DNA of 64,000 nt from Saururus chinensis (lineage: Eukaryota; Streptophyta; Magnoliopsida; Piperales; Saururaceae): the NCBI GenBank assembly GCA_035235625.1, contig CP141147.1, positions 12,947,001-13,011,000 on the forward strand, written 5' to 3'. Below the pieces are notes generated by a model. The model saw only the letters and a list, made by a program, of their open reading frames with translations, made no database searches and was not told the origin of the DNA. Within the stretch, counting starts at the first letter, position 1; each line of letters opens with the position of its first letter. Made by a program: the position numbers and the translations under genes. Of the stretch, positions 26,755 to 61,186 are shown piece by piece.

Positions 26755-27430
26755 TACTACAACAAAATGTACTATTAGCGGCGCTTTTATTAGAGATGTA
26801 AAAACAAGCGTTGCTAAAAACTAATTAATTGCGACACATAAAAAAGTGTCACAAAAAAATTCACTTGTAGTGATGCTTTATATTAAGCGTCGCTAATAGT
26901 CATTTATTAGTGATGCATAATATAAAGCGTCGCTAATACTAATCATATTAGTGACACTATATATTATGTGTCGCTAATAGTTATGTTATTAGCGATACTT
27001 TAAACAAGCGTTACTAGAAGATATGTGTATGAAAGTTTTTTTCAAAAATTTATAACTACTAGCGGCACATTTTCTTAACCATCGCTAATAGTTTTAACAA
27101 TAGCGGAGCTTATGAAAAAGTGTCTCTAATAATTAGACTATTAGTGATGCTAAAGAAAAAGTGTCGCTAATAGTTATGAATTTAAAATTTAAAACTAAAA
27201 TTTTAAAATTAATAACGACACTTGTAAATATCTTTATTAATTATATAATAAATATTAAAATAATTTAAAATAAAAATTTTAAATATAATATATTTTCTTC
27301 AATATTAACTATTTGTATAAATAATAAATAAATATTAGATAAAAGAGAGTGCCAATCAAAGATTAAACTTTCACTATTCAAATATAATATATTTTATTTT
27401 TAAAATTTTTTTATTAATTTTAAAATATAA
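26755..27430 (-). mobile_element. CACTA element C0, right end (reversed)
   Basis: Starts TACTACAACAAAATG, one base off the CACTACAACAAAA terminus, followed by dense diverged copies of TTAGCGACGC and its complement. From 27190 to 27439 it matches, in reverse complement, the right-hand AT-rich part of the complete CACTA element at 62710-62930, so this is a right end facing left. The preceding TGG at 26752-26754 recurs at 57797-57799, after a degenerate left terminus. Non-coding. Confidence 0.7.
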
Positions 27431-27439
27431 TTTATAATA
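27431..27439. other. 9-bp target-site duplication of the Ulp1 MULE, left
   Basis: TTTATAATA, immediately before the MULE terminus GAGGAATTGACC. Its reverse complement TATTATAAA sits at 42882-42890 before the other MULE end, and as a single copy at 62711-62719 in the related CACTA element without an insertion. Nine bases is the standard MULE TSD length. Confidence 0.8.
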
Positions 27440-28517
27440 GAGGAATTGACCAAGGTATACTCCTACTTTGATCAAATAACCGAAATGTGAGTAAGTTTCT
27501 ACTTTTTACCAAAGTAGACTTGCTCACGTGAGAACTTGTACACGTGGGAGCGCTTTTGACTAAAATTCCCTCCCCAAAGTAGACTCTTCGGTGAATGGTG
27601 TGTCTCTTCATCTCCCTCACTACCGCCACTTCCCGGAGAGCAGCTATTCATCTCCCTCGCCACCTCCACTTCCTGGAGAGCAAATGTTCGTCTCCCTCGC
27701 CATCTATTCCTCTTTGTCATTTCCGATTTCATCTGTCCCCCTCATTGCCCTCATCTCGGCCTCAGGAGGAATTGCCCACGCCCTCACAGCCCTCATCTCG
27801 CCCTCACCGCTCACCGCCCTCATCTCGACCTCACTCTCGACTGCACTGCCTCAACTCGACCTCAACCTCACTGCCCTCATCTGAAGGTATTTATTTTTTA
27901 CAAAATTGATATATTTGCTAATCATAGTCATTGGATCTTGCCTTCATGTCCCATACATGATTGTTGACACGAAAAGGTAGATTTTATTGAGAATAAAGCA
28001 TTAAGCTGTTACAAATTGCTTGCTGTGATTAGTATGTAATGATTAAAGTGTTTAAATTTTTGGATGAGTAAGCATGAATTAGTCTTAAATTGACCATTGT
28101 GACAAAATTGTATGATAAATATTAATATGCAACTGGGAACTGAATAACTACAAAACTAGAAAACTATAGAATTGAAAAATTGGAAATTGACACAAATTTT
28201 ATTGGTCATTGGCCGTAAAATAAGTGGAAAAGTATGAAACTAAATAACTGGTAACATATAAAACTGGAAAACTATAAATCAAGAAAACTATAAAACTGGA
28301 AAACTATATACTAGGAACTCCACCTACAACTAGAAAACGTGAAAACTATAACACTGGAAAACCATTATACTGGATCTTCTGGATTATAAAGAGCTTGATT
28401 AGTGAGCAATAATTTATTTTTTTAGGCATTATCTTTTTCATATATTAATAGCTTGATTATACAATATATGTATATTCCCTTTTGATTGATTTTTAATTTA
28501 ACATCTTTGTATAGGAA
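27440..28517 (+). mobile_element. Ulp1-MULE, left terminal inverted repeat and 5' leader with intron
   Basis: Begins GAGGAATTGACCAAGG. About 440 bp match 42891-43328 and the first about 130 bp match both ends of the MULE at 50131-53863, so this is a long MULE terminal repeat. It contains a CTC-rich leader ending CATCTGAAG, then GTATTT (a plausible splice donor) and a 600-base AT-rich intron with AACTGGAAA-type periodic repeats. The intron ends TTTGTATAG before the ATG at 28518. The same leader, donor and intron recur at 40077-40660 and, reversed, at 33490-33830. Confidence 0.75.
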
Positions 28518-28631
28518 ATGTCAAAGGCTGCATGGAAAAAAATAAGAAAGGGGAAACTGCCGAAGAAGCTATTTGAAGAGGATGACAACGCCCTTCCCGG
28601 AGACAGAGAACTAAGCATAGATGCAGTCTAA
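28518..28631 (+). pseudogene. First exon of a Ulp1-type MULE gene (37 codons)
   Basis: The encoded N-terminus (MSKAAWKKIRKGKLPKKLF) matches that of the minus-strand gene starting at 33485 (MSKAIGKTMKKGKLPNKLY), including the intron and AG acceptor just upstream of the ATG. The frame closes after 37 codons and homology to the DUF1985 region does not continue. It is therefore either a truncated copy or part of an exceptionally long terminal repeat that reaches into the coding region. A short stretch downstream (to about 28700) stays open but is unrecognised. Confidence 0.6.
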
Positions 28632-28695
28632 CTTTGGAGCTCTAGGAAGCCTAGACATCAGCTTAGCTTAGCTATCATGCGATCAATGAGGGGAT

Positions 28696-28875
28696 CACAG
28701 TTGGTGGAGCATGCCTCAATTGAGGATCTTCCTCACAGATGGCGACTGATTAGTCTATGACAATTTCTCTCAGCACAGCATAAAATTATGGTGCACTGAC
28801 AGAAATTGGCATAGGCCATTTTCACTTACGTCAGTGAGGAAGATCCTCAATTGAGACATGTCCCGCGACCACTGT
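28696..28875. repeat. 180 bp near-perfect foldback
   Basis: The two halves are inverted copies centred near 28784 (ATAAAATTAT). Left arm landmarks CTCAATTGAGGATCTTCCTC and GACAATTTCTCTCAG are matched in reverse by GAGGAAGATCCTCAATTGAG and CTGACAGAAATTGGC. The outer ends read ACAGT...ACTGT. Loop length is essentially zero. It could be a MITE, or an inverted duplication of adjacent MULE sequence capable of forming a miRNA-like hairpin. No coding function. Confidence 0.8.
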
Positions 28876-28889
28876 AGAAAAATTTCCCA

Positions 28890-29030
28890 TCGGGACCGAT
28901 TGTCATATGGTATAGACTTTCTCACGTGGGAACATGCAAATGTGGGAAAGCTTTAGACCGAACTACCCTCTCCTTCATCATATGACATCTCGACGGGAAA
29001 AACCTATATCGGCTATATTACGTCTATAAT
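28890..29030 (+). mobile_element. MULE terminal-repeat fragment
   Basis: CTTTCTCACGTGGGAACATG and the following CGACGGGAAAAA line up with 50205-50310 inside the left terminal repeat of the second MULE. The outermost part of the terminal repeat is not recognisable. Facing right, it may be the 3' terminal repeat of the Ulp1 gene copy that ends near 29780. Confidence 0.5.
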
Positions 29031-29779
29031 ATATATATTAAGAAAAAAGTATTCTTGTGGATATGAACAGTGTACAAGTACAATTTGTCTCTCTTTGTCT
29101 TTCCAGGTTTACTGTATACTTTTGTAGTTTCCAATTTGCCATTTTCTCCGCTTGCAGTGAAACTTTTCCATTTTCCAATTCCCATCTTTTCCTTTTCCAG
29201 TTCCCAGCTTGTAGTTTTCCAGTTCCCAGCTGGAAGTTTTTTCCAATACACCATTGACAATTTTCCAGTTCCTAGCTTGCAGTTGTCCACTTCCCAGTAT
29301 TCCCGTTTGGATACAATGTCCATGGTGCATCCCATTATGTTAGTATGGTTTTCTCTAAATTGCTCATTTGTGCATCCCATTATTTTAATACACCATAAAA
29401 TAACCATCTCCAGACAATATCCATTTGAATACAACATAAAAGAACAATATCTGAATATGTGTTCTTAATATTTTTAATTTAAAAACATTGAACACTTGGT
29501 AGGGTTTATGGTTGAACACTCAATATATTTAAAACAACAATATCTAAATACACCATTACATTGAACATTGAACAACATCTGGACATTTTTAATTAAATAT
29601 ATTGAGTGTTGTTTGTGCTTCAACTCTTAGCAGGGTTTATGGTTGCTTCTATGTCTCTGGAAGGCCGTAGTCATCCTCTTAAAAAAGGGTTCAACAGTTG
29701 CATTAGTAAAGCCCTCAATTAAATCTTATGTAAAGAAAATAATTAATGAATGACTAAATTCATACTATAACCCTTTTTT
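29031..29779. other. MULE 3' region with periodic repeats, no gene
   Basis: 29110-29300 holds many copies of TTTTCCAGTTCCCAGC-like units, a diverged form of the MULE intron periodic repeat. Open frames here are products of the repeat. 29480-29700 contains short direct repeats around GAACACT and TAGGGTTTATGG. Nothing else recognised. Confidence 0.5.
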
Positions 29780-32700
29780 TGTCCATAACTGGTAACCAAG
29801 TAACTTCCTTAGCCGAGGCACATCCTCACCAGTGAAGTCAAATGCATATCAATGTGACAAATACCACATGTATAAGCGTACAAGAACACCACAGTCATCA
29901 CAGTTAACCTGTTTGGGGTGACCTACTACCTCCACTCTAACCATCCAAACTTATAGAGGATTATAGGTATAAGGACCTGCAGCTTGCCAACCATAGTGCC
30001 ATATTTTTCCAACTCTTTTCCTGAGTAAAGAGGGTCAAAAATCTGAATATCAGCTTCCCATATATGGAGCACCACCAAAATCCAATGATTGTTGCTGACA
30101 TTGAGTGGGAAGTAATGATGTGAAAATTCTAAAAATGGTTTTCCTTTGACACTCAACAAGCTCTTCAAAGAGTTTGGGACGGATGTCCACATGTCGGGCC
30201 ATTCATCTAAATCTGGCAGCTTGCCATGCGCATTTGCAAATTCCACTCACTTATCCATGCATACTTGCGGTCACGCACAAGCAATCTCTACAAACACATT
30301 ACAGTAAATTAACTTTCATCCTAACAGCTATCCACTATCCTATTGATAATTATGCACTGTCCTATTCATAGTTATACATTTCACAGTTTAGAGTTTAGTG
30401 TATTTAAAAAAATGATGACTTACCAGGAAATCTATTGAGTGGAATGTTTGGTCCCTCACCCATTGAGGCCTATTGTTGCGCAAGAGTGTGACATAAGCAT
30501 CAATGTGCTATATAGAAACAAAAACACATTAGATTAATACATATTCCTTCCTTAGCTCTTACAAACATATATTAAAATGACATAAATCAATACACATACT
30601 TCATCTCCTAGCCATCTCCGAGGGTTTGTAAAACCCTTCAATAATGCTGGGGTTATTAGAGCACCCCCAAGGTCTGCATATCTTCTTATTACAAATACCA
30701 ACCCTTAAATCAAATACAATGCTAAGTAAATAGTATTAAATTTAAAAGGTCCCCGTTTGGAATAATAACAAATAAACTCACTTCTTCACACCCTTCTCTA
30801 AAAACTTATTTAACTTGTCTTCCATTGTTGCCCCAAATGAAACCGGGTTAGTAAAATCCAGTTGGGCAGCCACGCTTAGCTTGAGCAATTTATTGCTCTT
30901 CACTTTCTTCATGGTAGAGGTATCAACCTTTAGGGGTTTAGGGCACATATCCATATCCTTCTCAGTGGCCTTTCTTTTTTTGCCCTTTTTTTGTGGGTCT
31001 GTGTAGGGGGGTTTTCGATATTTACTCTTAGCCCTCACCCTTCCCGCTGGTGCAATTTATAATTTACGCTAACTCAAAAGCTTATTGTCCTCTTCTTCGT
31101 CCTACATAGGAAGATAAGAAAACTATTAGTTCTTGTTCTATGTAAGTACCTTTAATAAACAAAAATTATCTGTACCTCAATGGCAACAATAGTCCCCACG
31201 ACACCCCCATCCTTTTCCTTCTCCTTTACATCTTCTCCCTTCTCCTCCTCCTTTTTCTTCTTAGCTGCGTCCTCCTCCTCGTTTGCATCCTCCCCCTTCT
31301 CCTCATTCTCCTTCTCAGCCTTCTCCTCCTTATCAACCTCATCCTCCTTCTCCTTCTCAGCCTCCTCCTCCTCTTCCTCTTCCTCCTCCTTCTCCTCATG
31401 CTCTTCCTCATCCTTCTCATCCTCCATCTCCTCCTCTTTCTCTTCCTCATCCTTCTCCTCCTCCATCTCCTCCTCTTTCTCCTCTTCCTCCTTCTTCTCC
31501 ACCTCCATACCCTCATCTTTCTCTACCTCCTCCTCCTCCTCTTCCTCCTTATCTTCCTCATCCTCCTTCCCCTACTCCTCCTCCACCTCCTTATCCTCCT
31601 CATCATTCTCTTCCTCCTCCTCCTCCTCCTCCTCCTCCTCATCCTCTTCCTCCTCTTCCTGCTCCTCCTCCCCCTCATCCTCAGCCTCTGCCTCATCGTC
31701 CTCCTCTTCATCCTCCACATCCACCACCTTTTTCACCTCATCATCCATCTCTTTAACCACATTCTACATAAACACAACAAAGAAAAATTAAAATAGTTTT
31801 ACAAGTTTCAAGTGTTCCAGTTTTACACTTGTACATTTGTACAGTTTTGCCGTTTTATAGTTTTCTAGTTTTACAGTTGTCCAGGTTTCCAGTTTTCAAG
31901 TTTTACACTGTACTTACTTCATCAACATGCGGCAAATCACAATCCATTTGACAAGAAAATTTTTCTTCAACAACAGGCACCTACAAACAAATCATTCCAG
32001 CTCATTTTAATTGAAATATAATAATTTGCAAATTTGTAAAGAAAACTTAAACCTCATAGACTTTTTACCTTTTCCTTAGTTGCCTTGTTCATAACCTCTG
32101 ATTCCAATCTATCTACTTTATTTTCAATCCTTCTTAAGGAAGACAATATATCGAGTAGTGTGGCATGCAAACCCTCATCCCCCACCCTATGTTTCCCCTT
32201 TCTATCCTCCTTCCAATTGGAAGTCTCCCCAGCCACTTTGCTTTTCACTATAAAATTCTCATCTACATCTTCCTCTAAAGATTGAGCCACCTCTTGGGAA
32301 TTCCATTCCCCAATAGAGTCATCATCAAAGGTAGACTTCCCATCTACATCCTCACCATCATAAAACTGTTTGAAGACTGACAAATGATGTAAATGTTACT
32401 CTCACATTCGTCAAGAAGGACTTCAAACTTGCAGCTTCATGAATAAGTGCCTTGGACTCTTTGTCCTCAGTATCTACAGTTATGGCCTTTAGAACCTTTA
32501 CCTACATATCGCATGGTAAATGTATCATGTATGTGTATAGCATAAGTCATTCTAAACGAATAAAAAGTTAGTATATACCTTCCCACTAAAAACCACCTCC
32601 TCAAGATAATCGAATTTGGGCTTCTTATAAGATGCCCAGCTACATATATGAGGAAAAGTACTCCTCATTTTGCTTGCACAACAATCCCCTAGCAACGGAA

Positions 32701-33487
32701 TCCTCTCCATTGCCCACACCTAAAACATAACTCTCCATCAGTTAATTACTAAAATATTTTAACAAATTCAATGAATAAGTAAAACTTACTATTACAACAT
32801 GCACAAAACCATAGACATTATAATTTACATTGCCCATAGACCTCGCAGCTTGCTCTAAACCCCACAATGTGTCCCAGTAGCAAAGGTTTCCCCAAGGATA
32901 CTCATCAAAACCATCTAGGTCATCTCCAAGCTACAAGTATCTCCTATCCACCTTATTGTTCCACCCTCTACCTACCAATAAACTTTCCAAGACAAGAACT
33001 ACCGCTAACTTTACAGCATCCTTGTCATTTTCACATACTATAATCTTCTGGAACAACTCCTCCTTCTTTATTAATAATTGCGACCTCCCAAATATTCGTA
33101 GTAAGAGGCTGCCTTTCTTCAAGAATTTGGGCACTGATGGGAGAGGAGGGGTAGAGTCAGCAAATCTCAGGCCACTAACCATACAAAATTCCTTCGCTGA
33201 AAGCTTTATGCTCATCCTCTCATTCACTTAAACTAGGTAATTTGCCTTATGCCTCTTAAGGAGATAGTGGAAGGCTTGGGCAGGGAACATGTTTCGCGTA
33301 ACCTCGCATTCCGTAAACTTACCAAAACATGTCCTCTCAAACAACTTCTTCTGCACTTTATGCCTGTCAAAGTGTTCTTTTAATTTACCAATATAATAAT
33401 AACTTGACTTGCATTGGGGGTCCCCTTTATAAAGCTTATTCGGCAATTTCCCCTTTTTCATTGTTTTTCCTATAGCCTTTGACATAT
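29780..33487 (-). pseudogene. MULE-borne Ulp1/C48 protease gene with DUF1985 domain, decayed
   Basis: Reads right to left. The first exon starts with ATG at 33485 and encodes a DUF1985-like domain (near 33100-33400, ending in the FCMVSGLRF-type motif near 33180). Shorter exons separated by GT-AG introns follow to about 32050, with a coiled-coil-like stretch IENKVDRLE near 32100. An acidic Glu/Lys linker (31179-31764) and a basic stretch (30778-31038) come next. The C-terminal part is the SUMO-protease fold: His in SNNHW (about 30086), Asp in FDPL (about 30035), Cys in a CDDCGV motif (about 29892). This arrangement is known from Kaonashi/KI-type MULEs, where the protein may act in transposon biology rather than host desumoylation. 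In-frame stops occur in the first exon (after YLV at 33228 and after RRYL near 32931), so the copy looks inactive. No mudrA transposase is visible. Confidence 0.75.
31179..31764 (-). repeat. Acidic Glu/Lys-rich low-complexity coding tract
   Basis: On the minus strand almost every codon is GAG, GAA, GAT, AAG or AAA, giving long EEEKEE-type runs. It lies between the coiled-coil and basic parts of the Ulp1-type gene, where related proteins carry a charged linker. Plus-strand Ser- or Pro-rich frames are shadows of this tract. Confidence 0.8.
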
Positions 33488-33821
33488 TTCCTATACAAAT
33501 ATGTTAGATTAAAAACCAATGAAAAGGGCATATAAAAATATTATATAATAAAGACATTAATATCTGAAAAAGATAATGCTCAAACAAAATAAAGAGAATA
33601 CTTTTTATTATCTAGTGTTCCAATTTTATAGTTTTATAGTTTTTCTGTTTTACAGTTATCAGGTTTTATAGTTTTCCAATTATTCCGTTTCTTACTTTCC
33701 CACTTATCCACATATATTATGTCAAATAACCATAAAATTTAATTTCAATTTACTTTAATTTAAATTCTACTTAATTTTATTTAACCACGTATATTTAATT
33801 TAAATTTAACGACACAGTTTC
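33488..33821 (-). mobile_element. 5' intron of the Ulp1 MULE gene, cut at its outer end
   Basis: Upstream of the ATG on the minus strand lies the intron end TTTGTATAG, then periodic TTCCAGTT/TTATAGTT repeats. About 170 bases (33650-33821) match 40487-40660 in the reverse orientation at roughly 93% by my hand count. The homology stops at about 33821, where LTR sequence begins, so this marks a rearrangement junction. Confidence 0.7.
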
Positions 33822-35083
33822 CTTATTTCAACCAATTTTGAGTCCTTTTCATATTGGACTCCTTCCTACGGTTCTTATGCATATATAAAGACATATTTGG
33901 CTCGAAATTGGGGGTTAGCAAGTAGATTTTCTAAAGAGAAAAATGAAGAAGAAGATGAAGAAAAACTCAAAACTTTCAATGGAGATTCAAGTACTTTATT
34001 CTACAATGGAAGGCTAAACTTTTCTTTTACTTAGGAGTTGATGAAAATATTTAATTAGATGTTCTCACATTTTGAATTGCAATCAAATTTTGTGTTAATT
34101 CATTACTTATTTGGGCTATTTATATTTTGAATAAGTTAGTTGGAACTTAATTGACTTTACATGTCTAAATAGGCTTCAACAGATCCAACTAGAAGAGGAA
34201 GTGAAGCTCAACTACCCAAATCTATTTAAAAGTCAAGAATGGGCTCCTAATGCACTAAACATGCATGGAATGGTCTAATACAACCTTGTGGACCCATTGG
34301 ATTTGAGATTTGCATCAAGATAACTAATTTAGGAAAGAAGCTAATTCGGATAGATTGACACAGCCTTAGTATTTGGACCATATCTTTCTATATATAATTC
34401 GGATTGAAACGATTTGGCTATATATAATTCGGATTGATATGATTCGGGTGGCCTTGGAAAGAAGACTTCCTTGGCTACATTTGTTATTTCGGGAAGCAAT
34501 TCCAAATTCCGAAGATTTATAGGTCAAATCCGGCATGCAAACGGACAGCTAGTAAACTAACTCGAGGCTAGCACATAGATAATATTTTCATTGGTTATGA
34601 TTGATACACATAAGGAAAGACAATGAGGCTGATTGGATAACTTAAGGAAGATTCAAAGATACTTATTTTATAAAAAATCATTGATTTATTTGATTGATTT
34701 AGTATCTAATCATTGCCAAAGAAGCAACTAATCAGGCAATCAATCAGGATGTAATCCAGAGATATGATTTTACTTTCCCCTTTGAAGCAACTTCTACTTC
34801 TATAAATAGAAGGGTGGACGTAATAGAGAGAGAATCCCCTCCTCTTTGAAGCTCTATTCCCCTATTTTCTTCTTTTATTTTGTATTTTTGTTTTTAGTTT
34901 TATTGTAATGGCTTTTTAAGCTCAAAAGATAACGCTAGAGCTGATTTGTAAGAGTTTTTAATCAGAAAATTCCTCTTTAGATTTAGTAATAATTCATCCG
35001 TCCCTGAGGTTCGACAACCCTTAAATACTCATCCTAGTACAATTACCTCGTACACTTGCAAAGGGTTTAATTATAAACGATCA
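33822..35083 (+). repeat. Chimeric LTR (family A - B - A)
   Basis: 33822-34040 matches the upstream part of family A LTRs (ACAGTTTCCTTATTTCAACC, TATA-bearing ATATATAAAGACATATTTGG). About 34041-34950 matches family B (GATGTTCTCACATTTTGAAT, later CTATAAATAGAAGGGTGGACG). About 34951-35083 returns to family A (TTTTTAATCAG...AAACGATCA). The first switch falls at GTTGATG, a short sequence shared by both families. Confidence 0.75.
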
Positions 35084-35089
35084 AGTTTT

Positions 35090-35106
35090 TGGCGCTGTTG
35101 CCAAGG
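35090..35106 (+). other. Primer-binding site, tRNA-Asp type
   Basis: TGGCGCTGTTGCCAAGG, two mismatches from TGGCGCCGTTGCCGGGG, the complement of the 3' end of plant tRNA-Asp. It starts seven bases after the LTR end. Confidence 0.8.
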
Positions 35107-36469
35107 ACAGTGTTAATTTGTTACTAAATTAGCTTTAGGATAATTCTAGATACTTTAGTTTCAATTTACTTATTTTTTTTTAGGTTAATTTTTAGTTTCT
35201 TACCTTCTTTTAATTTGATCTTGTAGGTTGAGTTGAAGGTGCTTTCTACACTTGTGGCCACAAGTGGACATTGGCAAGCATAGTGCTTCTCTTCGGTTTA
35301 CAAGATCCTTTTCCCTTTTTATTCTTTTTCCTTAAGTTATTTTTGCTTCCTCTTTCCCTTTTTACACTTAAAATTATGTGGTGTGTTTGTGGTGTATGCG
35401 TAGTCGTCGCTCCTTACTCCCCCGATTAGTACCATTTGACCCTGAGCCTGAGCAGACATCCAGGAGATCTTAGTTGCCCTCGACCTACATCCCTACACCC
35501 CAAACTCTCCCACCAATTCCTCCACCCACACTACTTCTACCTTTTATCATAGCTGAACATCAGTTAGTAGATACACCACTCAAAGCTTGAAGGGAGTATT
35601 ACACTCCCAATGAGTACACCTCCCCTTCATGCATTAAGTTGCTAGAGGTTGCTGCTCAAAATTATGAAATCAAGCCCAATGTCATTCAAATGCTTCCATT
35701 TTTTTATGGACTTAATAATGAAAACCCGTATAGGCACCTAGATGACTTCTTGGAAATATGCACAACTTTTAAGATTTCAAATTTAACCGATGAAGCTGTT
35801 AAACTTCGCCTTTTTCCTTTCACCTTGAAAGATAAGGCTAAGGAATGGCTTCACTCTTTAGAGCTAGACACCATCACAACTTGGGCCCAAATGCAACAAG
35901 AGTTCCTAAAAAAATACTTCCCCATAGGTAAGACCAACCAAATGAGAAAAGCCATAACCACTTTTGCCCAACTTCCCACTGAATAGTTCCATGAGAGTTG
36001 GGATATACTTAAGGACCTTCTTAGGAGGTGTCCTCATCATGCTGTCCCTAAGTGGCAATTAGTGCAACATTTTTACGAGGGTCTTACTGAACAAAATTGT
36101 CATCTTGTTGATGTAAGTTGTGGGGGTACCTTTTTACTAAAAAATGAAAATGAGGCATGGAAACTTTTTGAGGACTTGAGTGAAAATTCTCTTCAACATG
36201 CTGCGTTGAATAGAAATGAGAGTGGACTATCTACCTTGAACAATGCCCCCTCTAAGGGTGGCTTGTATGAAGTCAAAAACCCATTAGACATCTCCTCTAA
36301 AGTTGATACTTTAAGTAGGAAGCTAGACCTCCTTATGACTTCAACACATCAGCCCACTTCCTTCACTCAAGATGCATGCACAATATGCCTTAGCCCAGCC
36401 CATACTATCATAGAGTGCCCCTCTGCCTCTCAATTTCCTGAGCTTGTCCAAGACCATGTGAATGCTACC

Positions 36470-37638
36470 TGATAAGTATAATTTATACGTTATTTTACCC
36501 TTAATTATTCTATTTTCTAGTCTCATTTAAGTGTTAATATAGGTTAAATTATTAGATATTAAATTTAATTAGGTTAGAAAAAGCTTCTATAGTGTTTTGA
36601 ATTAAATTGGCTTATTTTGCAGATTCTTCATTGGCGTTCGAACGGCCTCACTTACCATTCAATCGGTATAACGTAAATTCGAAGAAAAGTCAGTTCAAGC
36701 GTTCGAACGGGTATGTAGGGCATTCGAACGGGATAACGCGCAGTTTCCTTATTTCAATCAATTTCAAGTTTTTTTCATATTGGACTCTTTCTTACGGATC
36801 TTATGCCTATATAAAGACATATTTGGCACGAAATTAGAGAGCAAGTAAATTTTCTAAAGAGAAGAAGGAAGAAGAAGATGGAGAAAAACCCAAAGCTTTC
36901 AATGGAGATTCAAGTGCTTTCTTCTACCATGGAAGTCTAGGCTTTTCTTTTACTTAGGAGTTGATAAAGCTATAGATAAGTTTCAGTTTCTTTTTTTTTT
37001 TAATTTAGATCTCAATTGTGAATTATGACAATTATATGATAAGGATTTTCTTTTTAATGGAAGAGCTTTTCATGTTTATTTAAATCTATGTTGATTTATT
37101 GTCTTGTAGATGATAAATTGATGTGGTTTTGATATTTGCATCAATTCTAATTACTGTGATTTAGATGAGATGGTCATACAATAGTTTTAATGTTTAGATA
37201 ATTAAGGACTTGGATGAGTTATACTAAGATTAGACGGGTCATGCTTATAGCTATTTAGTGTAGATGATTCGTGCTATTGTCAAAGATAGTTCATGCCATA
37301 GAAATTAATTAATGATTCTTTTTGAAGTAATTCTAGCTTGTAGCTGAGAATACTTGCTCATATTCACACTAGATTTAGATTAAGAGTTAAGGAATTGTTA
37401 TGGTTCTATAGTGGATTTGATTTCCTAAGTAAAATCTATCATATTAGTCTCTTACTTTTGATATAGTTTATTCTTTCTTTTGCTTAATTAAAGTTTATGT
37501 TCTTTTTAGTTTTTAATCAGTAAATTCTACTTTAGATTTAGTAATAATTCATCCGTCCTTGAGGTTCGACAACCCTTAAATACTCATCCTAGTACAATTA
37601 CCTTGTACACTTGCAAAGGGTTTAATTATAAATGATCA
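36470..37638 (+). repeat. Solo LTR, family A, nested in Athila-like gag
   Basis: TGATAAGTATAATT...AAATGATCA, 1169 bp, flanked by CTACC at 36465-36469 and 37639-37643. A TATA-like GCCTATATAAAGAC lies near 36788. The TTCGAACG motif recurs upstream. Family members also occur at 52008-53441, 53864-55270 and 58294-59288 (reverse). Confidence 0.9.
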
Positions 37639-38679
37639 CTACCCAATCCTTCCCTAGGGCTAAGAATAATCTATTTTCAAACATATATAACCCTGGGTGA
37701 AGGTATCATCCTAACTTTTCCTGGCAGGCACAAAACCAAGGTGTTGTAGGCAACTAACCCCCTACGCTACCATTCCAAGTCCCACCAGCCCATATCCACC
37801 AACCTCAACTCCAACATCTATATGTCCAACCCAATAGGAGTCCAAGTTTTGAAGAAAAGGTCTTGAGTGCCCTGCAAGGCATTCAATCTCAATACCAACT
37901 CCTCCACTCTCACACACAATCTATAGTAAAGTTAGAAGCCCAAATTGAACAACTAGCCAATGCTATCAATAAGAGAGAGATGGGGACTTTGCCAAGTCAA
38001 CCTATACAAAACCCTAAAGGTCAATTTCAGGTAGAGGGAGCTCCTTCTTCTAATGAACAAGTTAATTCCATAATGACCCTTAGGAGTGGGAGGATTGTTG
38101 ACAAGAGTGTTGGGGGGACACCAGTGACAGATGATAGGACTGAGGAGTTAGAGAGGGCATCCACTAATGAGCCTCAAGTAGAAGTTAGTGCACCACATGA
38201 GATGGAGTTTATATCTTTTTCCCTTTCCTCAGAGTCACTGTCTAAGACCACTTCCGAGGGATTTTATATCCCTAGGGCAAAATTTTGCCCGCGGAAATTA
38301 AAATTTTTTTAAATAAAACTATTTGGCGACGCTCTTTTGAGAGCATCGCTATTATGCCCACAGTAGCGATGTATCACTGTATACATCACTACTGAGCTCA
38401 TATTAGCGTCGCTAATAATTAGAAACAACTGCCGAGGGTGGGCGAAATATTTTTTTTACAATTAAACTATTTAGCGATGCTCTCTAAAATATCCTCCGTA
38501 GCGGCATATTATTGTATACGTCGCTACTAAGCATTTATTAGCGACGCTGTTGTAGAGCGTCGCTAAAAATTAAAAACTACTGGCGCAGGCAGAATTTCAG
38601 CCGTGGCAAAAAAAAAATTTAAGAAAACTATTTAGCGACGCATTGGACGACCGTTGCTAAAACGATTTTTTTATATTTT

Positions 38680-38990
38680 TACTCTCTCTCCTCCCTCCCT
38701 CTCTCTCTCTCTCTCTCACCCTCCTCTCTATCATCCCTCTCCACCCTCCTCTCTCTCACTCTCTCTCTCTTCTCCCTCCCCTCCTCTCTCTCCTCCCCCT
38801 CTCTCCCCTCCTCTCTCTCCTCCCTCCTCTCTCTCTCTCCTCCCTCCCCTCTCTCTTTCTCTCTCACTCTCTCCCCTCCTCCCTCTCTCTCTCCTCCCCC
38901 ACTCTCTCCCCTCCTCTCTCTCCCTCCTCTCTCTATCCTCCCTCCTCTCTCTCTCTCTCTCCTCTATCTCCCTCCCCCTCTCTTTTTCAT
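38680..38990. repeat. CT-rich polypyrimidine tract 1 of C2
   Basis: Almost pure CTCTCC/CTCCCT tract of about 300 bases. Ser- and Leu-rich frames on one strand and Arg/Glu-rich frames on the other are artefacts of composition. Confidence 0.9.
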
Positions 38991-39164
38991 TTAATTTTTT
39001 TTATTGAAAACATAGGTAGTAGCAACATATTCCTATGCATCGCAACTACCAAGGGTAATCATGATGCTTAGAAATATGCGTCGCGATTGCCCTTAGTCAG
39101 TAGCAACGCATATCGCTATGCATCGCTACTGCTTATTTTTTTATTTTTAAAATAATTTTTTCTC

Positions 39165-39520
39165 CCTCTCCTCCCTCTCTCTCTCTCTCCTCTCTCCTCT
39201 CTCTCCTCACTCCCTCTCTCTTTCTCTCTCACTCTCTCCCCTCCTCCCTCTCTCTCTCCACTCCTCTCTCTCTCCCCCTCTCTCCCCTCCCTCTCTCCTC
39301 CCTCCTCTCTCTCTCTCTCCTCTCTCCCTCTACACTCTGTCTCCCTTCTCTCTCTCTCTCCCTCTCTCCTCTCTCCTCCCCCCTCTCTCTCCCCTCTCTC
39401 CTCCCTCCCCTCTCTCTTTCTCTCTCACTCTCTCCCCTGCTCTGTCTCTCTCCTTCCTCCCCTCCCTCTCCTCCCTCTCTCCCCTCTATCTCTCTCTCCC
39501 CTCCCTCCCCCTCTCTCTTT
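39165..39520. repeat. CT-rich polypyrimidine tract 2 of C2
   Basis: A second CT tract of about 350 bases, separated from the first by TAGTAGCAACGCATA-type hairpin repeats. Confidence 0.9.
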
Positions 39521-40076
39521 GTCATTAAATTTTTTATTTAAAAAATAGGTATTAGCAATGCATGTAACTATGTGTCCCTACTACCAACGGTAATAGCGAC
39601 GCATAGTTACATACGTCGCTACTACTATCAGGTAGTAGCGAAGCATACCTATGCATTGCCATTACTTCATAATTTTTAATTTTTTTATTTAAAATTGATA
39701 AATATTAGCGACGCTTATTTATAAATGTCGCTATTGTTGAAACTATTACTGACGTTTGGAAAAATTCATCGTTAATAGTTTTGAAATTTTTAAAAAAAAA
39801 TTAATAGATATATCTTTTAGTGACGCATATGCAAGCATCGATAAAAACCTAAGTATTAGCAATGCATGAACTTAAGCATTGCTAAAAGGTTAGGTATTAG
39901 CGACGTTTGTACTTATACGTCGCTAATAGGCTACCATTAGCGATGCTTAATATTATGCGTTGCTAATATTGGTTTTTTTTGCGACATTTTTTATATGTCG
40001 TTATTACCACTTTGTAGCGACACATTTTATTGCGACGCTTAGAAAAGCGTCACTAATACCCAATTTTGTTGTAGTG

Positions 40077-40664
40077 CTCACTGCCCTCATCTCGGCCTTG
40101 CCCTCGCCTACACTGCGATATCTCGGCCTCGCCCTCATCTGAAGGTATGATATTTTTTATAAATTTGACATGTTTTTTAATTTTAGTCATTGGATTTTTC
40201 CTACATTTCCCATATGTAATTGGTTAACAAATTTCCTCAGTTGGTCTTATTTGGATTTTGACTGTATTTCCCATTTTATTGTGATTGTTACATAAAAACT
40301 AAAATTTGGATTTTATTGCAAATCAAGCATTAATTAGTTACAAATTGCTTGATGTGATTAGTACGTAATGATTGAATTTTGTATTTTTGTTATGAGTAAG
40401 CATCAATTAGTCTCAAATTGACTGCTGTGAAGAAATTATGTTAAATGTTACTGTCAAACTACGAGCTGAATAACTACAAAACTGGAAAAATGTAAATTTA
40501 AATTAAATATATGTGATTAAATAAAATTAAGTAGAATTGAAATTAAAGTAAATTGAAATTAAATTTTCTGGTTATTTGATATAATATATGTGGATAAGTG
40601 GAAAAGTAAGAAACACAATAATTGGAAAACTATAAAATTGAAAATTAAAATTAAAATACGCCCT
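40077..40664 (+). mobile_element. Ulp1-MULE 5' leader and intron, displaced copy
   Basis: From the CACTA end onward the sequence matches 27860-28300: CTGCCCTCATCTCGG, donor CATCTGAAGGTATG, then CATTGGATT, AAGCATTAATTAGTTACAAATTGC and GAGTAAGCATCAATTAG in the same order. From 40487 it also matches 33821-33650 in reverse. It stops at about 40664, where sequence of the Reina-like element begins on the minus strand. Confidence 0.7.
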
Positions 40665-42626
40665 TTGGTAGGTAACAGCAAGAGATCAGTGACAAATGAA
40701 TGGCCCTGTATAGACAAGGTAACCTGCGCACACACCCCATTGCTCCGGAGGTGCTTGTCATCTCCAATTAGGATGTCAAAGGGTTTGGAGTCCGATACGA
40801 AACACCCAAGTCTGGTGGCAACCCTGTCATTAATAAAATTGTGAGTAGAACCACTGTCGATCAGGATAGCTACCTGATGGCACTTGAGGAACCCTGGACG
40901 CGCATTGTGCAAGGCGTAAAAGCCCCAGAAAATGCATGCACAGATATCTCTGGTGAGAGCTCGTCAATGGCGGACAAGGCAGAGCCATCATAACCCTCTT
41001 CTCCTTCGTCAATTTCTTCCACCAGAAGGCTACCCTTAACAGAATAGCGGTGCCCGGGCACGAATTTCTTGTCACATCTGAAACATAATCCCTTCGAACG
41101 ACATTCCTCCATTTGAGCAAGTGTGAGACGTCGCATGATAGGACCAGCAGGGGCGGTTGGCTGAATTGGACGGCCCGGTGCAGAACTGCTGAGGGGCAGG
41201 GGTAAGGAATTGGCGCTAGGGACAGATCGAGCCAACGGTCCCAGCCTCCCTCCTCTACGCTGTCTGGCTAGTTTTTCCTCTTCGATGCGAGCATGACGCA
41301 CCACGTCCCGCATGTTGGCACATGGGAAATGTTGTATCTCTTCTGAAATTTCAGGCTTGAGGCAGCGCTTGAAGGTGCCCACCAAGGCGGCCACCAACCA
41401 ATCGGGCAACTGGTTGGCCACCTTCATGAATTCAGTGTAGTATGCACGGATGGTGGTAGTCTGGCGTAGGGATGATAGCATCTCATTAAAATCCTGGAAC
41501 TCATTAGGCCCAAACTGCACACATAGTTCATTGGAGAAGGCGGCCCAGGTCGGGTAGCACACCTCTTTCTCGAAGCTTTGGAACCAAACTGAGGTGTCAC
41601 TGTCTAGGTGAAAGGCTGCGATGCACAAGCGCTCAGCCTCAGAGTGCGTCCCTTGATAGGCGAAGAATTTTTCCGCCTTGTATAGCCATTCCACTAGATC
41701 ATCATCCCCATTGTAGTGAGGAAATTGTTGGCGGGCTAAACGGGGTTCAACGCTCCCTCTTTGTCCCCCACCATGCCGAGGAAAGTCATCCCAATCTTCT
41801 TCAGCGTCCTGGAATTGGACAGAATGGGGCGGCCTCATAGGGACATTTTCACGAACACTTGGTGTGCCTCGTGTGTCCCAGGTCTGGCATCCCCCTCCCA
41901 ACACTGACTGGCCAGTGCCATAGCGTGCAGGGTAAGGAAGCACCCCTATGTTAACGCCGGCCAGTATTGGGGGGTTCTGGAAGGATGGGCTCTGGAGGCT
42001 GCGAGGGCCCGCCCTTCTGCGGAGGAATTGACGCTGGTACACACAGGAGAGGGTTGACGCGCGCTTCCCATGTGTCCTGCCTTGCCGTCATGCTGGCGAA
42101 ACCACAGTAAGGTTTTGCACTGCCAAGAGTATCTCTAACAGCTTGGCGTTGCTGACCACGGAATTGGCCTTCGGGCTGTCCGCTGCTGATGGTGCTGGAG
42201 CCTCCTTCTCTGAAGGCATCTCCTGCACAACTGCTTGTTTGCCACGAGCCATGGCCGGGTATCGCAAGAGCTCCGATACCAATGATGTGCCCAATGCAGG
42301 CACGATCGGTACCTAGGAGAATTGCGCAGAGAAAGGGGAGAAATATTGAAGAAAGGGGAGAAGTCTGAGAATCTCAAATTGCATAAACTAGAAACAAGAG
42401 TCAAGGCTGCCCCATATAGGAGACAACCCTCCTAGGGAGCCGAACCAGCTGAACCAAATCAGTCTGGTTCATACAATATATTCCTATCAGTGGGTCGGCT
42501 ATACCAGACCACCAACTAAATCAACAAGTACGATAATAAAAGACTACAATACCAATTAAATAATTTAGTGCAATAAAGTAACAATAAGAGAGTCAGTCTA
42601 AGCATCGTGTTCAATCATGCACAACA
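40665..42626 (-). mobile_element. Reina-like Ty3/gypsy chromovirus, 5' half, on the minus strand
   Basis: Reading leftward from 42626: a 344 bp LTR, a PBS (TTGGTATCGGAGC, tRNA-Met type, complement at 42270-42282), then a gag frame (42042 to 40870). The gag carries EWLYKAEKFFAYQGTHSEAE, a WAAFSNELCVQFGP segment and a zinc-knuckle-like CFRCDKKFVPGHR. A protease start follows with AILIDSGSTHNFI. The other half of the same element is on the plus strand at 44545-49391. It looks broken at fewer than ten places in all, apart from the insertion in the other half and the opposed orientation. Confidence 0.8.
42283..42626 (-). repeat. 5' LTR of the Reina-like element
   Basis: 344 bp, reverse complement of 49048-49391 with about 24 differences by hand count, nearly all transitions. 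With a commonly used grass LTR rate of about 1.3e-8 per site per year this gives roughly 2-3 million years, as an order of magnitude. The base group ACGAC after it (42627-42631) is the reverse complement of GTCGT, one mismatch from GTCGC after the other LTR. Confidence 0.85.
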
Positions 42627-42670
42627 ACGACGCTTACAAGCATCGCTAATATTGCAATTTGTTGTAGTGA
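42627..42670 (-). mobile_element. CACTA element C3, terminal fragment
   Basis: Reads GATGCTTGTAAGCGTCGT-type subterminal sequence on the minus strand and ends with AATTTGTTGTAGTG at 42670, the CACTA terminus. It abuts a CT-rich tract with no gap, so C3 appears to have inserted into the CT tract of another CACTA element. Sequence at 49392-49889 beyond the other Reina-like LTR is its likely continuation. Confidence 0.6.
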
Positions 42671-42881
42671 CTCTCTCTCTCCTCTCTCTATCTTCACTCT
42701 CTATCTCTTCACTCTCTCTCTCCTCACTCTATCTCTCATGTCTTTCTCACCCTCTCGCTCTCCTCACCCTCTCTCTCATGTCTTTCTATCTCTATCTCCC
42801 TCTCCTCACTCTATCTCCTCTCCACTCTCTCTATATGCACTCTCTCTTCCTCACTTCTCTCTCTTCACTCTCTCTCTTTTT
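42671..42881. repeat. CT-rich tract of CACTA element C0
   Basis: About 210 bases of CTCTCT/CTCACT. It ends in TTTT-TATTATAAA, exactly the order seen at 62690-62719 in the complete CACTA element, where TTATATTTTA follows. Here a MULE end follows instead. Confidence 0.8.
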
Positions 42882-42890
42882 TATTATAAA
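42882..42890. other. 9-bp target-site duplication of the Ulp1 MULE, other end
   Basis: TATTATAAA, reverse complement of 27431-27439 and identical to the unoccupied site at 62711-62719. Confidence 0.8.
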
Positions 42891-43328
42891 GAGGAATTGA
42901 CCAAAGTAGACTCCTACTTTGGTCAAATAACTGAAATGTGAGCAAGTTTTTACTTTTTACCAAAGTAGACTTGCTCACGTGAGAACTTGTACACGTAGGA
43001 GCACTTTTGACTGAAATACCCTCCCCAAAGTACTCTTCCCGATTCTTGGTGTCTACTCCCGCTCGGTCGTGACTGTTCATCTCCCTCGCCACCTTCACCT
43101 CTCGGCGAGTATTATATTTGCCATTTCCGACTTCATTTGTCATTTCGATTCGCCCTCGCCGGAGAGCTTTTAGTCTTCTTGGCCTCATTCCCTTCTGAGG
43201 CCATTAGTTCCCCCTCACCTTCAGCACCCTTACTATCCTCATCTCGCTGTCGGCTATCTTGCCCTCACCCTCACCCTCACCGCTCTCACTGCCCTCATCT
43301 CGGCCTTGTCCATCTTTCCTTCGTCCTC
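42891..43328 (+). mobile_element. Ulp1-MULE terminal repeat, other end (same orientation as the first)
   Basis: GAGGAATTGACCAAAGTAG onward is about 90% like 27440-27600 and then shares the CTC-rich leader in a looser way. True terminal inverted repeats should face each other. This copy faces the same way as 27440, so the segment carrying it has been inverted. It ends at CTC where CACTA element C2 begins. Confidence 0.75.
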
Positions 43329-44012
43329 CACTACAACAAAAGGACTATTAGCGACACATTTATGCATCGCTAATAGTCTTGTAAGCGTCGCTAATGACTA
43401 TTAGGAAAGCATAAATAACGTCGCTATAAATGTCGAAAAAAGTGTCGTTGCTATTGCTTATTAGCGATGTATAAAATAAACATCGCTAATAAAATCATTA
43501 TGTCGCTAATAATACATTATTAGCGACGTTTATTTTATATGTTGCTAATACTCAATTATTAGTGACGTTATCTATATGTCGCTAAAGAAAAAACAATTTA
43601 AAAAAAAAAGTAAAAAATATCTTATTAACGACGCATAATCATATGCCTCGCTAATATGAAACAATATTTATAAAAAATTAAAATTTATGTATTAGCGACG
43701 CTTATGCAAGCGTCGCTAATAAGAAAAATAATAAAAAAATTAAAAAGACTTTATCGACGCTTTTAAAAGTGTCGCTACAAGCGTTAAAATTTTAAAAAAA
43801 ATTTTGCGAAGGCGATCTGGGAGAGGGGAGAAGGGCCAGATTCCGGCTCCCCACTGAAATCCGGACAATCCTATCGCCAAGGGGAGCCAGGGAGAGAGGG
43901 GGGATTGGGAGGGAGGGGGCTGGGGAGAGGGAGGGGGAGCCGGGGGGGGGGAGGAGCTGGGAGCTGGGAGCTGGGGAGATGCAGGGGCGAACTGGGGAGA
44001 GGGAGGGGGGAG
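43329..44012 (+). mobile_element. CACTA element C2, left half
   Basis: CACTACAACAAAAGGACTATTAGCG at the start, then about 480 bases of TTAGCGACGC-type repeats and a GC-rich core (43800-44012, GGGGAG-rich) like 59930-60650 of C4. It stops in the core where a reversed Athila-like LTR begins. The right half is at 38276-40076. Confidence 0.75.
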
Positions 44013-44541
44013 TGTTGTTACGTCAAAACCAAGACTATAAAGAAGTCAAATTTACATTTGTTTTACTTGTCAATTGTATTAGATAAGGTTGATCCACAGG
44101 GAAAGCCTTGTACAACAAAGTAAACGATTACGAAAAAAATAGAGAAAAGAAAAATTAAGAGTGAAAGAGGTGAAAAGTATTGAGACTATAAAGATTTAAA
44201 AAATCAAGATGAGAAAACACTAAGGCATTAAGGATCATTGTAACATCTAATGATGTTCTTAATGTATCTTGTTATCTCAGTTAGAATCGAATGAAGATTC
44301 TATCTAACCGGAAGATATGAGCATTAAAAGCAAAAACAAAGATAGAAAATGCTTTGGATAGATGAAGGATAAAAAAATTGTCTCTTCAAGATTTCTATGT
44401 ATCCAAATCACAATAGATCAAAAACGAGAGCCTTCAAGCATCTTATGTATCCAAATCACAAAGAAACAAGAAGAAGAACAATATTAAATAAACATCACTT
44501 CAAATAAACAATACTTACTTGAAACCATTGATGAAACATGA
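44013..44541 (-). repeat. Partial Athila-like LTR, family B, reversed
   Basis: TGTTGTTACGTCAAAACC onward matches the reverse complement of 10590-11120. It ends abruptly at about 44541, where the plus-strand half of the Reina-like element begins. That junction is a rearrangement breakpoint. Confidence 0.8.
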
Positions 44542-46689
44542 ATTGAATGTGTTAGGTGTGCAGTGGCTCCAGGAGCTCGGCGATGTTGTTTGGAACTTTT
44601 GGGAGATGTGGATGGACATTGAGCTCCAGGGGCAGCGCGTCCGGTTGGACTGCTCTAGGCCAGGCACTCTTCTCTCCGCCCATCCTTCGAGCACCTTGTT
44701 CTGGTACGCCCCCCAAGGGCTCCTCTTGCAGCAGCGTGCAGCCATTGAGGTGTCTTAGGACATCATGCCGACCGACCTCCAAGAGTTATTGACAGATCAC
44801 CAAGACTTGTTCACTGAGCCACAGGGACTTCCGCCTAGCTATTCTTATGATCATCAAATTCCGATTACCCCTGGCACCGCCCCAACTAATGTGCGTCCCT
44901 ATCGCTACCCACATATTCAGAAAGCAGAGATCGAGTGGCTCGTGTTCGATATGCTTCAGGCAGGAATTATCAGGCCTAGTACAAGTTTCTATTCGTCACC
45001 AGTGTTACTTGTGCATAAGAAGGACGGTACATGGCATTTCTGTGTTGACTACCGCGCCCTCAATGCCGTGACTGTGAAAGACAAGTATCCGATTCCAGTG
45101 ATTGAGGAGTTGCTCGATGACTTGACCGGTGCTACTGTGTTTAGTAAGCTCGACCTACGTTCGGGCTATCATCATATCCACATGAATGCCGCCGATGTGC
45201 ACAAGACAGCCTTCTGAACTCACGATGGCCACTTCAAGTTCCTGGTATGCCATTTGGATTGACAAATGCCCCATCCATATTTTAGTGCCTCATGAACGAC
45301 CTCTTTCATCCGTTCCTGCATCGTTATATATTGGTCTTCTTCGATGATATTCTGGTGTACAGCAGATCCTAGACAAAGCACTTGACACACCTCAGGTCGG
45401 TCTTCTCTATTCTGCGTGCCAATTCTTTATGTCTTAAACGTTCAAAGTGCTCTTTTGGCAGTCAGCAGGTGGATTATTTAGGCCACATTATATCGGGGAA
45501 TGGTGTCGCCACCGACCTAGCCAAGGTGGCCGCCATGCTGTCTTGGCCTATTTCCAAGTGTGTTCGGGCACTCCGTGGGTTTCTAGGCCTCACCGGGTAC
45601 TATCGGCGCTTCATTAGTCAATATGGGGAGTTGACTAGACCTTTGATAGCGCTGCTCAAACGGGGCGCTTTTGCTTGGACTCCAGATGCACAGGAGGCCT
45701 TTGAAGGGCTGAAGCAAGCCATGGCCTCCGCCCCAGTCTTGATTCTGCCTGATTTCAGCTGCCCGTTTGTGGTAGTGACTGATGCTTCGGACGCTGGCTT
45801 GGGGGCGGTTTTGTTACAGGACGAGTGTCCCATCGCCTATTTCAGCAATGCTCTGGCGGGCCATTCCTTGTCGCTATCTGTCTATGAGAAGGAAATGCTG
45901 ACCATCATCCATGTGGTCACCAAGTGGCGCCCATACCTATTGGGTCGACGGTTCCTTTTTCACACTGACCATCAGCCATTGAAGTTTTTCCTCGAATAGC
46001 GGGTGTCCACTCCGTCTTAGCAGCGGTGGGTCAATAAACTTTTGGGTTATGATTATGAAGTTGTGTATAAGAAGGGATCAGAAAACACAGTGGTTGACGC
46101 TCTCTCTCGTATACCTACCCCGGGGTCGTGTTTGGCCTTCTCCACGCTCTCTTGTCCCTTTATTGATGAGTTGAAGCAGGCCTACTGTTCTGATGCCTCG
46201 ACGCAGGCTTTGATTGTTGCTCTCCAGGATGACTCGGCAGCCCATCCGTTTTACACTTGGCGGGATGATCTTTTGTTCTAGAAGGATCGGTTGTGGGTTC
46301 CTGTTGTCTCTGATCTTCACCGCCGCATTATATCTCATTTCGATGATTCTCCAGTGGCTGGTCATGAAGGGGTTTTTCGCACTTATAAGAGGGTCAGCCA
46401 GAGTTTCTTATGGTTGGGGGTTCATCGGGCTATGCATGAGTATGTGACTGCTTGTGATATTTGTCAGCGCACCAAGGCTGCTACCACTTCTCCAGCTGGG
46501 TTGCTCCAACCTCTGCCCATTCCGGACAAAGTATGGGAGGATGTATCGATGGACTTTGTGGAGGCCTTACCGCTGGTGCAGGGTAAGTCGGTGATCATGG
46601 TGGTGGTTGACCGTCTGTCTAAGTATGCTCATTTCTACGTGTTGGGTCATCCTTTCACTGCTAAAACGGTGGCGGACCTGTATGTCTGG

Positions 46690-48125
46690 TGTTGTTATGT
46701 CTAAAACAAAACTATGAAGAAGTCAAATTCAGATTTGTTTTACTTGCCAATTGTAGTAGACAAGGTCGATCCACAGGGAAAGCCTTGTGCAACAAAGAAA
46801 ACTATTACGAAAAAAAATAAAGAAAGGAAAAATTAAGAAAGAAAGAGTAGAAGAGTATTGAGGCAATATAGAGTCAAGAAATCAAGATGAGAAAATACTA
46901 AGGCATTAAGGATCATTGTACCATCTAATGATGTTCTTCATGTATCATGTTATCTCAGTTACAATCGAATGAAAATTCTATCTAACCGGAATATATGAAC
47001 ATTAAAATTAAAATTAAAGATAGAAAATACTTTGGATAGATGAAGGATAAAAATAATTGTTTCTTAAATATTTTATGCATCCAAATCACAAAAGATCAAA
47101 AAAGAGAGCCTTTAAGCATCTTATGTATCCAAATCACAAAGAAACAAGAAAAAGAACAATATTAAATAAACATCACTTCAAATAAATAATACTTACTTGA
47201 AACCATTGATGAAACATGAATTGAACTCCATTAAATTGTTACAAATCTCCTCTAGCCTTAGCTTGAGAGCTTAGAAAGCCATTACAATAAAACTAAAAAT
47301 AAAAATACAAAAGTAAAGAAGAAAATAGGAGAAGAGAGCTTCAAAGAGGAGGGGATTATTCATCTATCACGTCCACCCCTCTATTTATAGGAATAGAAAG
47401 GGTTGCTTCAAAGAGGAAAGTGAAATCATATCTCTAGATTGCATCCTGATTAATTGCCTGATTGGTTGCTTCTTTGGTAATGATTAGATACTAAATAAGT
47501 CCATGATTTATTTAGCAAATAAGTATCTTTGAATCTTCCTTTAGTTAACCAATCAGCCTCGTTGTCTTTCCTTATGTGTATCAATCATAATCAATGAAAA
47601 TATTCTTCATGTGCTGGCCTCGGGTTAGTTTACTAGCTCTCTTTTTGCATACCGAATTCGGCCCATGAATCTTCAGAATTTAGAATTTCTTCCTGAAATA
47701 TCATTTGTAGCTATGGAAATCTTCTTTCCAATGCCACCAGAATCGTATCCATCTGAATTATATATAAAAAGATATGATTGTAATACTAAGGCTCTATCAA
47801 TCTGTCCGAATCAGCCTCTTTCCTAATTTAGTCTTCTTCATACAAATCTCAAATCAAATGGGTCCACAAGGTTGTGTTCGACCATTCCATGTATGTTTAG
47901 ACTATTAGGAGCCTATTCTTGACTTTGAAATAGCTTTTGGTAGATGGGCTTTTCTTCCTCTTCTACTTAGATCCTGTTAAAGCCTGTTTAGACATATAAA
48001 CTCAATTAAGGTCCAACTAACTTATTCAAAACATAAATAGCCCAAATCAGCAATGAATTAACACAAAATAGGATTGCAATTCAAAATTTAAAAACATTTA
48101 ATTGAACATTATTTTAGTGCATCAT
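46690..48125 (-). repeat. Solo LTR, family B, reversed, nested in the Reina-like integrase
   Basis: TGTTGTTATGTCT...TTAGTGCATCA, 1436 bp, the reverse complement of the 9709-11120 LTR. Flanks TCTGG (46685-46689) and TCCGG (48126-48130) make a 5-bp TSD with one mismatch. TATA box near 47390 on the minus strand. Only one LTR and no internal region are present, so it is a solo LTR. Confidence 0.9.
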
Positions 48126-50088: not shown

Positions 50089-50130
50089 ACTAGCAAATAT
50101 GGTATAAGGCATATAAAATAGATATATATT
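50089..50130 (-). repeat. Reversed head of a family A LTR
   Basis: TAGCAAATATGGTATAAGG and TAAAATAGATATATATT are the reverse complement of 53864-53905, the sequence on the other side of the MULE. Both flanks of this MULE are therefore inverted copies of the same LTR segment. Confidence 0.7.
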
Positions 50131-61140: not shown

Positions 61141-61186
61141 TCTTTTATTTTAAAAATAAAAAAATTAATAAAAATTAAAATAAAAT

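Follow-up and report, generated by a model that had tools for sequence, protein, structure and literature searches.

How can the two ends of one transposon face the same way, the two long terminal repeats (LTRs) of one retrotransposon lie on opposite strands, and the left half of a third element stand to the right of its right half? The question is raised by a 64,000-base stretch of Saururus chinensis contig CP141147.1 (assembly GCA_035235625.1, positions 12,947,001 to 13,011,000), hereafter the window, which contains no N and is dense with transposons nested in each other. This one window was analysed by self-comparison (match lists at score thresholds of 90 and 50 bits), junction reading, protein scans with Pfam profiles at their family cutoffs, and arrangement tests. 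Judging from the sequence, the ancestral order was very probably A, rcB, rcC, D (rc, reverse complement), with two adjacent blocks, B and C, each inverted in place between block A, which ends at 33808, and block D, which begins at 44548. The blocks and their breakpoints are:

33809-40637, unstranded: block B, inverted, ~7 kb (orientation of a Mutator-like element [MULE] piece and of the right half of CACTA element C2)
40661-44547, unstranded: block C, inverted, ~4 kb (orientation of MULE terminus, LTR, gag and protease)
33808/33809, unstranded: breakpoint a, MULE terminal repeat against the truncated LTR of retrotransposon T (alignment)
40637-40661, unstranded: breakpoint b, 40637, then ~21 nt, then ~40661 (alignment)
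40638-40658, plus strand: AT-rich 21-nt stretch at breakpoint b, taken as filler (junction reading)
44547/44548, unstranded: breakpoint c, X-family LTR piece against the protease gene of a Ty3-type element (alignment)

The first marker is the MULE, named MULE1, whose two termini, at 27440 and 42891, share the plus-strand reading GAGGAATTGACC. The nine bases outside them, TTTATAATA on the left and TATTATAAA on the right, are exact reverse complements, so that they can stem from one insertion only if one MULE1 end was turned round. Facing termini with a direct 9-bp target site duplication (TSD) are obtained only after flipping block C. A preliminary description of this DNA had pointed out these same-facing ends and reverse-complement duplications, and the exact match bears it out. 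Given the base composition of the 100 and 50 bases beyond the ends, nine matches of nine have a chance probability of ~2.5e-5, which is higher when the A/T-rich edge alone is counted. The parts of MULE1 are:

27431-27439, unstranded: left 9-bp TSD TTTATAATA (terminus search)
27440-28600, plus strand: left terminal inverted repeat, ~1.16 kb (alignment)
30013-33251, minus strand: interior, with decayed Peptidase_C48 (30013-30147) and DUF1985 (32868-33251) (Pfam scan)
33421-33663, minus strand: right terminal repeat, inner piece, still in block A (alignment)
40077-40637, plus strand: right terminal repeat, middle piece, including the duplicate copy 40493-40637 (alignment)
42891-43328, plus strand: right terminal repeat, outer piece, wrong-facing (alignment)
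42882-42890, unstranded: right 9-bp TSD TATTATAAA, reverse complement of the left one (terminus search)

When the three right-repeat pieces are joined (42891-43328 plus, 40077-40637 plus, 33421-33663 minus), they match the left repeat at 872 of 1052 sites, with 300 gap columns. All 48 orders and orientations of the pieces were also scored against the left repeat, with 100 dinucleotide shuffles as control; the best was this same arrangement (p1+ p2+ p3-) with a score of 940, compared with 697 for the runner-up, 220 for the present layout and a maximum of -2.6 among the shuffles. The middle piece was taken from 40080 in this test and from 40076 in the joined alignment. The interior carries an Ulp1 segment, recognised by a weak match to Peptidase_C48 (E 9e-05; 22.8 bits versus a cutoff of 20.7), and a weak match to DUF1985 (E 9.9e-09; 35.7 bits versus 35.1). 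No transposase family appeared in the Pfam scan of 28600-33420, and four of the six frames of the interior were without any Pfam family. An Ulp1 protease segment is likewise present in Ulp1-bearing MULEs of grapevine and in the Arabidopsis KI-MULE, and the 9-bp TSD is as in plant MULEs; in the sections of that report drawn on here, KI-MULE is without terminal inverted repeats, whereas MULE1 has repeats of ~1.16 kb and its C48 and DUF1985 segments are decayed (PMC2528002).

MULE1 is inserted in a CACTA copy, C1, the interior of which probably continues, inverted in position, at 42670-42881. A related empty site lies near 62711 in another CACTA copy, C4: positions 42790-42881 joined to the reverse complement of 27215-27439 align through the junction to C4 62600-62930 (251 matches, 40 mismatches, 66 gap columns), and with shorter flanks the undone join scores 277, no other orientation exceeding 166. 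Long CT (or AG) tracts occur repeatedly in or beside the CACTA elements (38682-39518, 42671-42877, 55403-55678 and 61367-62684). The CACTA parts concerned are:

26755-27439, minus strand: outer part of C1, left of the MULE, with terminus TACTACAACAAAA at 26755, one mismatch to CACTACAACAAAA (terminus search; joined flanks align to C4 62600-62930)
42670-42881, plus strand: CT tract, probably of C1, the outer flank of the MULE right end, its low complexity making the assignment weaker (self-comparison)
59403-63386, plus strand: C4, both termini, ~3.98 kb, holding the MULE1 empty site near 62711 (terminus search, alignment)

Separate MULE copies were rejected as the source of the two ends: the 9-bp duplications match, C4 shows the empty site, and apart from these ends the window has one pair of MULE-type termini, 50131 and 53863, which face each other (four termini in all were found at five mismatches or fewer), with the caveat that no direct target duplication was seen for the 50131/53863 pair.

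The second marker, C2, has its left terminus at 43329 and its right terminus at 40076, both in plus orientation, with the left half lying to the right of the right half. CTC stands on both outer sides with matching MULE leader beyond, just as had been claimed beforehand for these swapped halves; the element has CACTA/TAGTG termini and a 3-bp duplication. Among in-place flips, the order of C2 is recovered only when both blocks are flipped. A further junction that had been listed at 38.28 kb is present, the gag of a retrotransposon meeting C2 repeats at ~38.27 kb by eye; it reflects truncation within the nest, and no inversion breakpoint is needed there.

38270-40076, plus strand: right half of C2, terminus at 40076, inner border by eye (junction reading)
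43329-44011, plus strand: left half of C2 (terminus search, junction reading)
44012-44547, minus strand: 3' part of an X-family LTR lying in C2, cut at breakpoint c (self-comparison)

The third marker is a Ty3-type retrotransposon. Its LTRs at 42283-42626 (minus strand) and 49048-49391 (plus strand) are identical at 320 of 344 sites, ungapped, and an opposite-strand pair of this kind can still be one element; after C is flipped, the outer 5 bp read GTCGT and GTCGC and agree at four of five positions. The opposite strands of this pair (42283 and 49048) had been recognised earlier and stand, while the reverse-complement TSD match reported with them holds at four of five bases only, and the element is confirmed as Ty3-type, "Reina-like" having been the earlier reader's label.

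40661-42087, minus strand: gag and first protease part (Pfam scan)
42283-42626, minus strand: 5' LTR (self-comparison)
42627-42669, minus strand: terminus of CACTA C3, the insertion site of the Ty3-type element (terminus search)
44548-49047, plus strand: pol (reverse transcriptase, RNase H, integrase), interrupted by an X-family LTR (Pfam scan)
49048-49391, plus strand: 3' LTR (self-comparison)

The gag gene lies on the minus strand at 40870-42087 (Retrotrans_gag, E 1.6e-12), and reverse transcriptase and RNase H lie on the plus strand from 44759. The protease (RVP_2, E 1.4e-09, positions 32-103 of 136) runs to 40661 on the minus strand and resumes as VLGVQWL at ~44548, the element thus being cut inside its protease gene. 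The usual protease spacing is G-C-D-x-V-L-G, and judged from this spacing ~5 bases are missing at the join. The second protease part (the 44546-44755 piece) matched no Pfam family by itself and aligns weakly to its counterpart in another gypsy-type element of the window. An X-family LTR at 46690-48124, flanked by CCGGA and CCAGA (four of five bases agreeing), splits the integrase gene, of which the zinc-binding domain passes its cutoff and the core is represented by partial sub-cutoff matches on either side of that LTR. The assignment to the Ty3 type rests on the LTR pair, gag, protease, reverse transcriptase, RNase H and integrase; additionally, a Tf2-1-like SH3 domain is present and a chromodomain trace (E 0.09) falls below cutoff.

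Taken together, these markers leave one order. The MULE repeat calls for A beside rcB (33808 adjoining rc 40493) and the protease gene for rcC beside D (rc 40661 adjoining 44548). Among the eight signed orders, A, rcB, rcC, D alone satisfies both, an argument that is reasoning from observed adjacencies and not a separate computation. With that order, the direction of the MULE terminus, the direction of the LTRs and the order of C2 agree without extra assumption, and flipping both blocks restores MULE1, C2 and the retrotransposon simultaneously. The preliminary description is therefore supported in substance, its inversions of about 40.66-44.54 kb and 33.8-40.5 kb being refined to 40.66-44.55 kb and 33.81-40.64 kb.

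Block B is also flanked at both ends by one and the same segment, inverted, as expected of a staggered break. The two copies (33664-33808 and 40493-40637) are 94.5% identical, with 8 differences in 145 sites (E 2e-59). An inverted MULE segment had been described at 33650 and 40487; it is there, with a length of 145 bp and not 170.

33664-33808, minus strand: copy of the 145-bp duplicate that closes block A (94.5% to 40493-40637)

Compared with the MULE left repeat, these copies show 28 and 24 differences, respectively, in 122 sites (47 gap columns excluded); being so much closer to each other, they are marked as a recent duplicate. The divergence of the duplicate, 0.055 (0.024-0.106), and that of the Ty3-type LTR pair, 0.070 (0.045-0.102), have overlapping ranges, so that only the order of events is firm: the flips cut the Ty3-type element and are therefore later than its insertion. 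Unless the two arose together, the duplicate gives no date for the flip of B. That the inversions postdate the nest, as had been proposed, holds for the elements cut or carried (MULE1, C2, the Ty3-type element, T and the X piece) and not for every insertion in the window.

At breakpoint a the MULE repeat meets T, whose 5' LTR is without its first few hundred bases relative to other copies of LTR family Y. This LTR has Y-family ends and an X-family middle beginning at, or close to, the start of the X LTR; it is followed by a motif that we take to be primer-binding-site-like. No Pfam family was found in the two open reading frames of T.

33809-35083, plus strand: 5' LTR of T, its 5' end lost at breakpoint a, a mosaic of families Y and X (self-comparison)
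36470-37638, plus strand: solo LTR of family Y inside T, with a perfect 5-bp TSD, CTACC (read from sequence)

Another solo LTR of family Y, at 52008-53441, has a perfect 5-bp duplication, AGACC. In the region 59290-64000, C4 sits in an X-family LTR that starts exactly where homology to other Y-family copies breaks off (59289/59290).

How might the two blocks have been turned? It is likely that, once the nest existed, breaks at three points followed by end joining turned B and C round in place. Three chromosome breaks would have fallen in the MULE right terminal repeat, where T borders the X LTR piece, and within the Ty3-type protease gene, and both fragments would have been rejoined backwards. 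The first of these would have had ends staggered by 145 nt, and their filling-in would have left the inverted duplicate at both ends of B. The scars of end joining would be the 21-nt stretch at b, the TA that MULE and T have in common at a, the ~5 lost protease bases and the lost start of T's LTR; microhomology, filler and base loss are by-eye readings of the junctions. No source of the 21-nt stretch stood out in the window, where its best other match has 3 mismatches and 5 sites, itself included, were found at up to 4 mismatches, compared with 0-11 sites in five shuffles.

All three breakpoints lie inside elements (terminal repeat, LTRs, protease gene) and none at a transposon end, a placement that bears on two other mechanisms. 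Alternative transposition by MULE or CACTA ends is suggested by the presence of both types here and by the inversions of this kind known for Ac in maize (PMC8225341), but it predicts termini and target duplications at the breakpoints and is highly improbable. The maize Ac/fAc inversions resemble ours in their transposon setting and differ, in what that account describes, by having termini and target duplications at their breakpoints. Ectopic recombination between inverted repeats, with the 145-bp pair older than the flip, would fit the presence of that pair on both sides of B; we regard it as improbable, given that it needs an earlier inverted MULE copy at the T/X border and that for C no joining inverted repeat occurs among the self-matches listed. 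The longest inverted exact match between C's breakpoints is 8 bases, and 20 shuffles reached 9 inverted and 11 direct. With breakpoints away from transposon ends and no inverted repeat joining those of C, break and rejoining is favoured over both.

Whether the flips were simultaneous is a finer question. We tentatively propose, as something that could well have happened, a single local event in which three breaks within ~11 kb freed two fragments that were both rejoined reversed, one break being staggered by 145 nt; one such event is simpler than two inversions hitting one point twice. Two successive end-joining inversions, with the second break at or within tens of bases of the first junction, are a possible but doubtful history. 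They would produce the identical final order, breakpoint reuse is a term counted in papers on Drosophila inversions, and the bases lost from T's LTR could conceal an offset between the two breaks, but the middle breakpoint must have been hit twice, with only ~21 nt between the MULE duplicate and the retrotransposon (40,637-40,661). Replication template switching, in which the copying strand skipped forward, ran backwards through B beyond the first switch point, skipped again, ran backwards through C, and resumed, turns both blocks in one event and makes the inverted duplicate an overshoot; it is unlikely, leaving unexplained the close abutting of the copied blocks, with ~5 protease bases lost.

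Several observations weigh against the three-break reading or parts of its evidence. In the empty-site match, only 3 of the 32 exact bases across the join come from the right flank, which is mostly CT tract, and 29 (the duplicated 9 included) come from the other; the test is for this reason stronger for strand and position than for match length. Divergence along the MULE repeat varies (22/168 and 37/204 in other stretches), and its outermost 135 sites have 10 differences (7.4%), so that low divergence alone is no mark of a recent duplicate. For block C no duplicate at the breakpoints was found among the self-matches listed, and staggering is therefore seen at one break only. An assembly error is favoured by the repeat-rich region, and a false join of diverged haplotypes could also give differing copies; it is nevertheless very unlikely, as 8 differences separate the 145-bp pair, additional bases and minor losses mark the junctions, and a false join within one molecule would yield identical copies. 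Finally, X coordinate 10574 is where the X segment in T's LTR stops, and block C's X piece begins at 10588, with compatible divergences. The favoured model leaves this near meeting to chance; the alternative is a fourth breakpoint.

A four-break model, in which X 9709-10574 at ~34040-34951 and X 10588-11120 at 44013-44547 are halves of one split LTR, was set aside because the Y parts on either side of T's X segment act like a single LTR copy. The two Y parts of T differ from the 36.5-kb Y copy at 25/228 and 6/131 sites, and the 36.5-kb and 52-kb copies differ from each other at 33/227 and 7/131. Other Y pairs (ten compared) scatter more, such as the 52-kb and 59-kb copies with 4/232 and 9/131.

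The three-break reading places the locus beside known rearrangements; it resembles ordinary breakage and repair of a chromosome that left an unusually clear record. Staggered breaks are, in the part of the source used, the prevailing origin of inversions in some Drosophila (PMC4965816). As here, the segment duplicated at the breakpoints of staggered-break inversions is ascribed to staggered breaks and subsequent repair; unlike those, the present case is at kilobase scale, inside transposons, in a plant, with two adjacent blocks and a duplicate at one break. In maize, the retrotransposon-rich centromere 10 is described, in the sections cited, as shaped by double-strand-break-driven rearrangement, with inversions and chimeric or partial retrotransposons formed via break repair and dated by insertions, as in our window (PMC4806543). 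The inversions there are large and were deduced via synteny with sorghum, whereas the order here comes from the nested elements themselves.

The rearrangement is thus of a known kind with unusually good internal evidence. The nested elements serve as independent markers that fix order and orientation, the LTR pair (7.0% divergence) and the inverted duplicate (5.5%) give a rough relative date, and breakpoints placed near base level in a plant can be used for a test of mechanism. If true, the single event would be a miniature, internally dated case of the break-and-shuffle repair otherwise described for whole chromosomes. Small inversions in repeats are easily overlooked because repeat annotation works on colinear pieces; one defragmentation program starts a new model where colinearity breaks, and non-transposition rearrangements are under-annotated according to its author, in the passage cited (PMC2672092).

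A minor observation concerns the second MULE (50131-53863). The 43 bp outside its left terminus (50088-50130) repeat, inverted and almost unchanged, the 43 bp that lie beyond its right terminus (53864-53906), which are part of a Y-family LTR. Repair of the left end seems to have copied the right one together with adjoining sequence.

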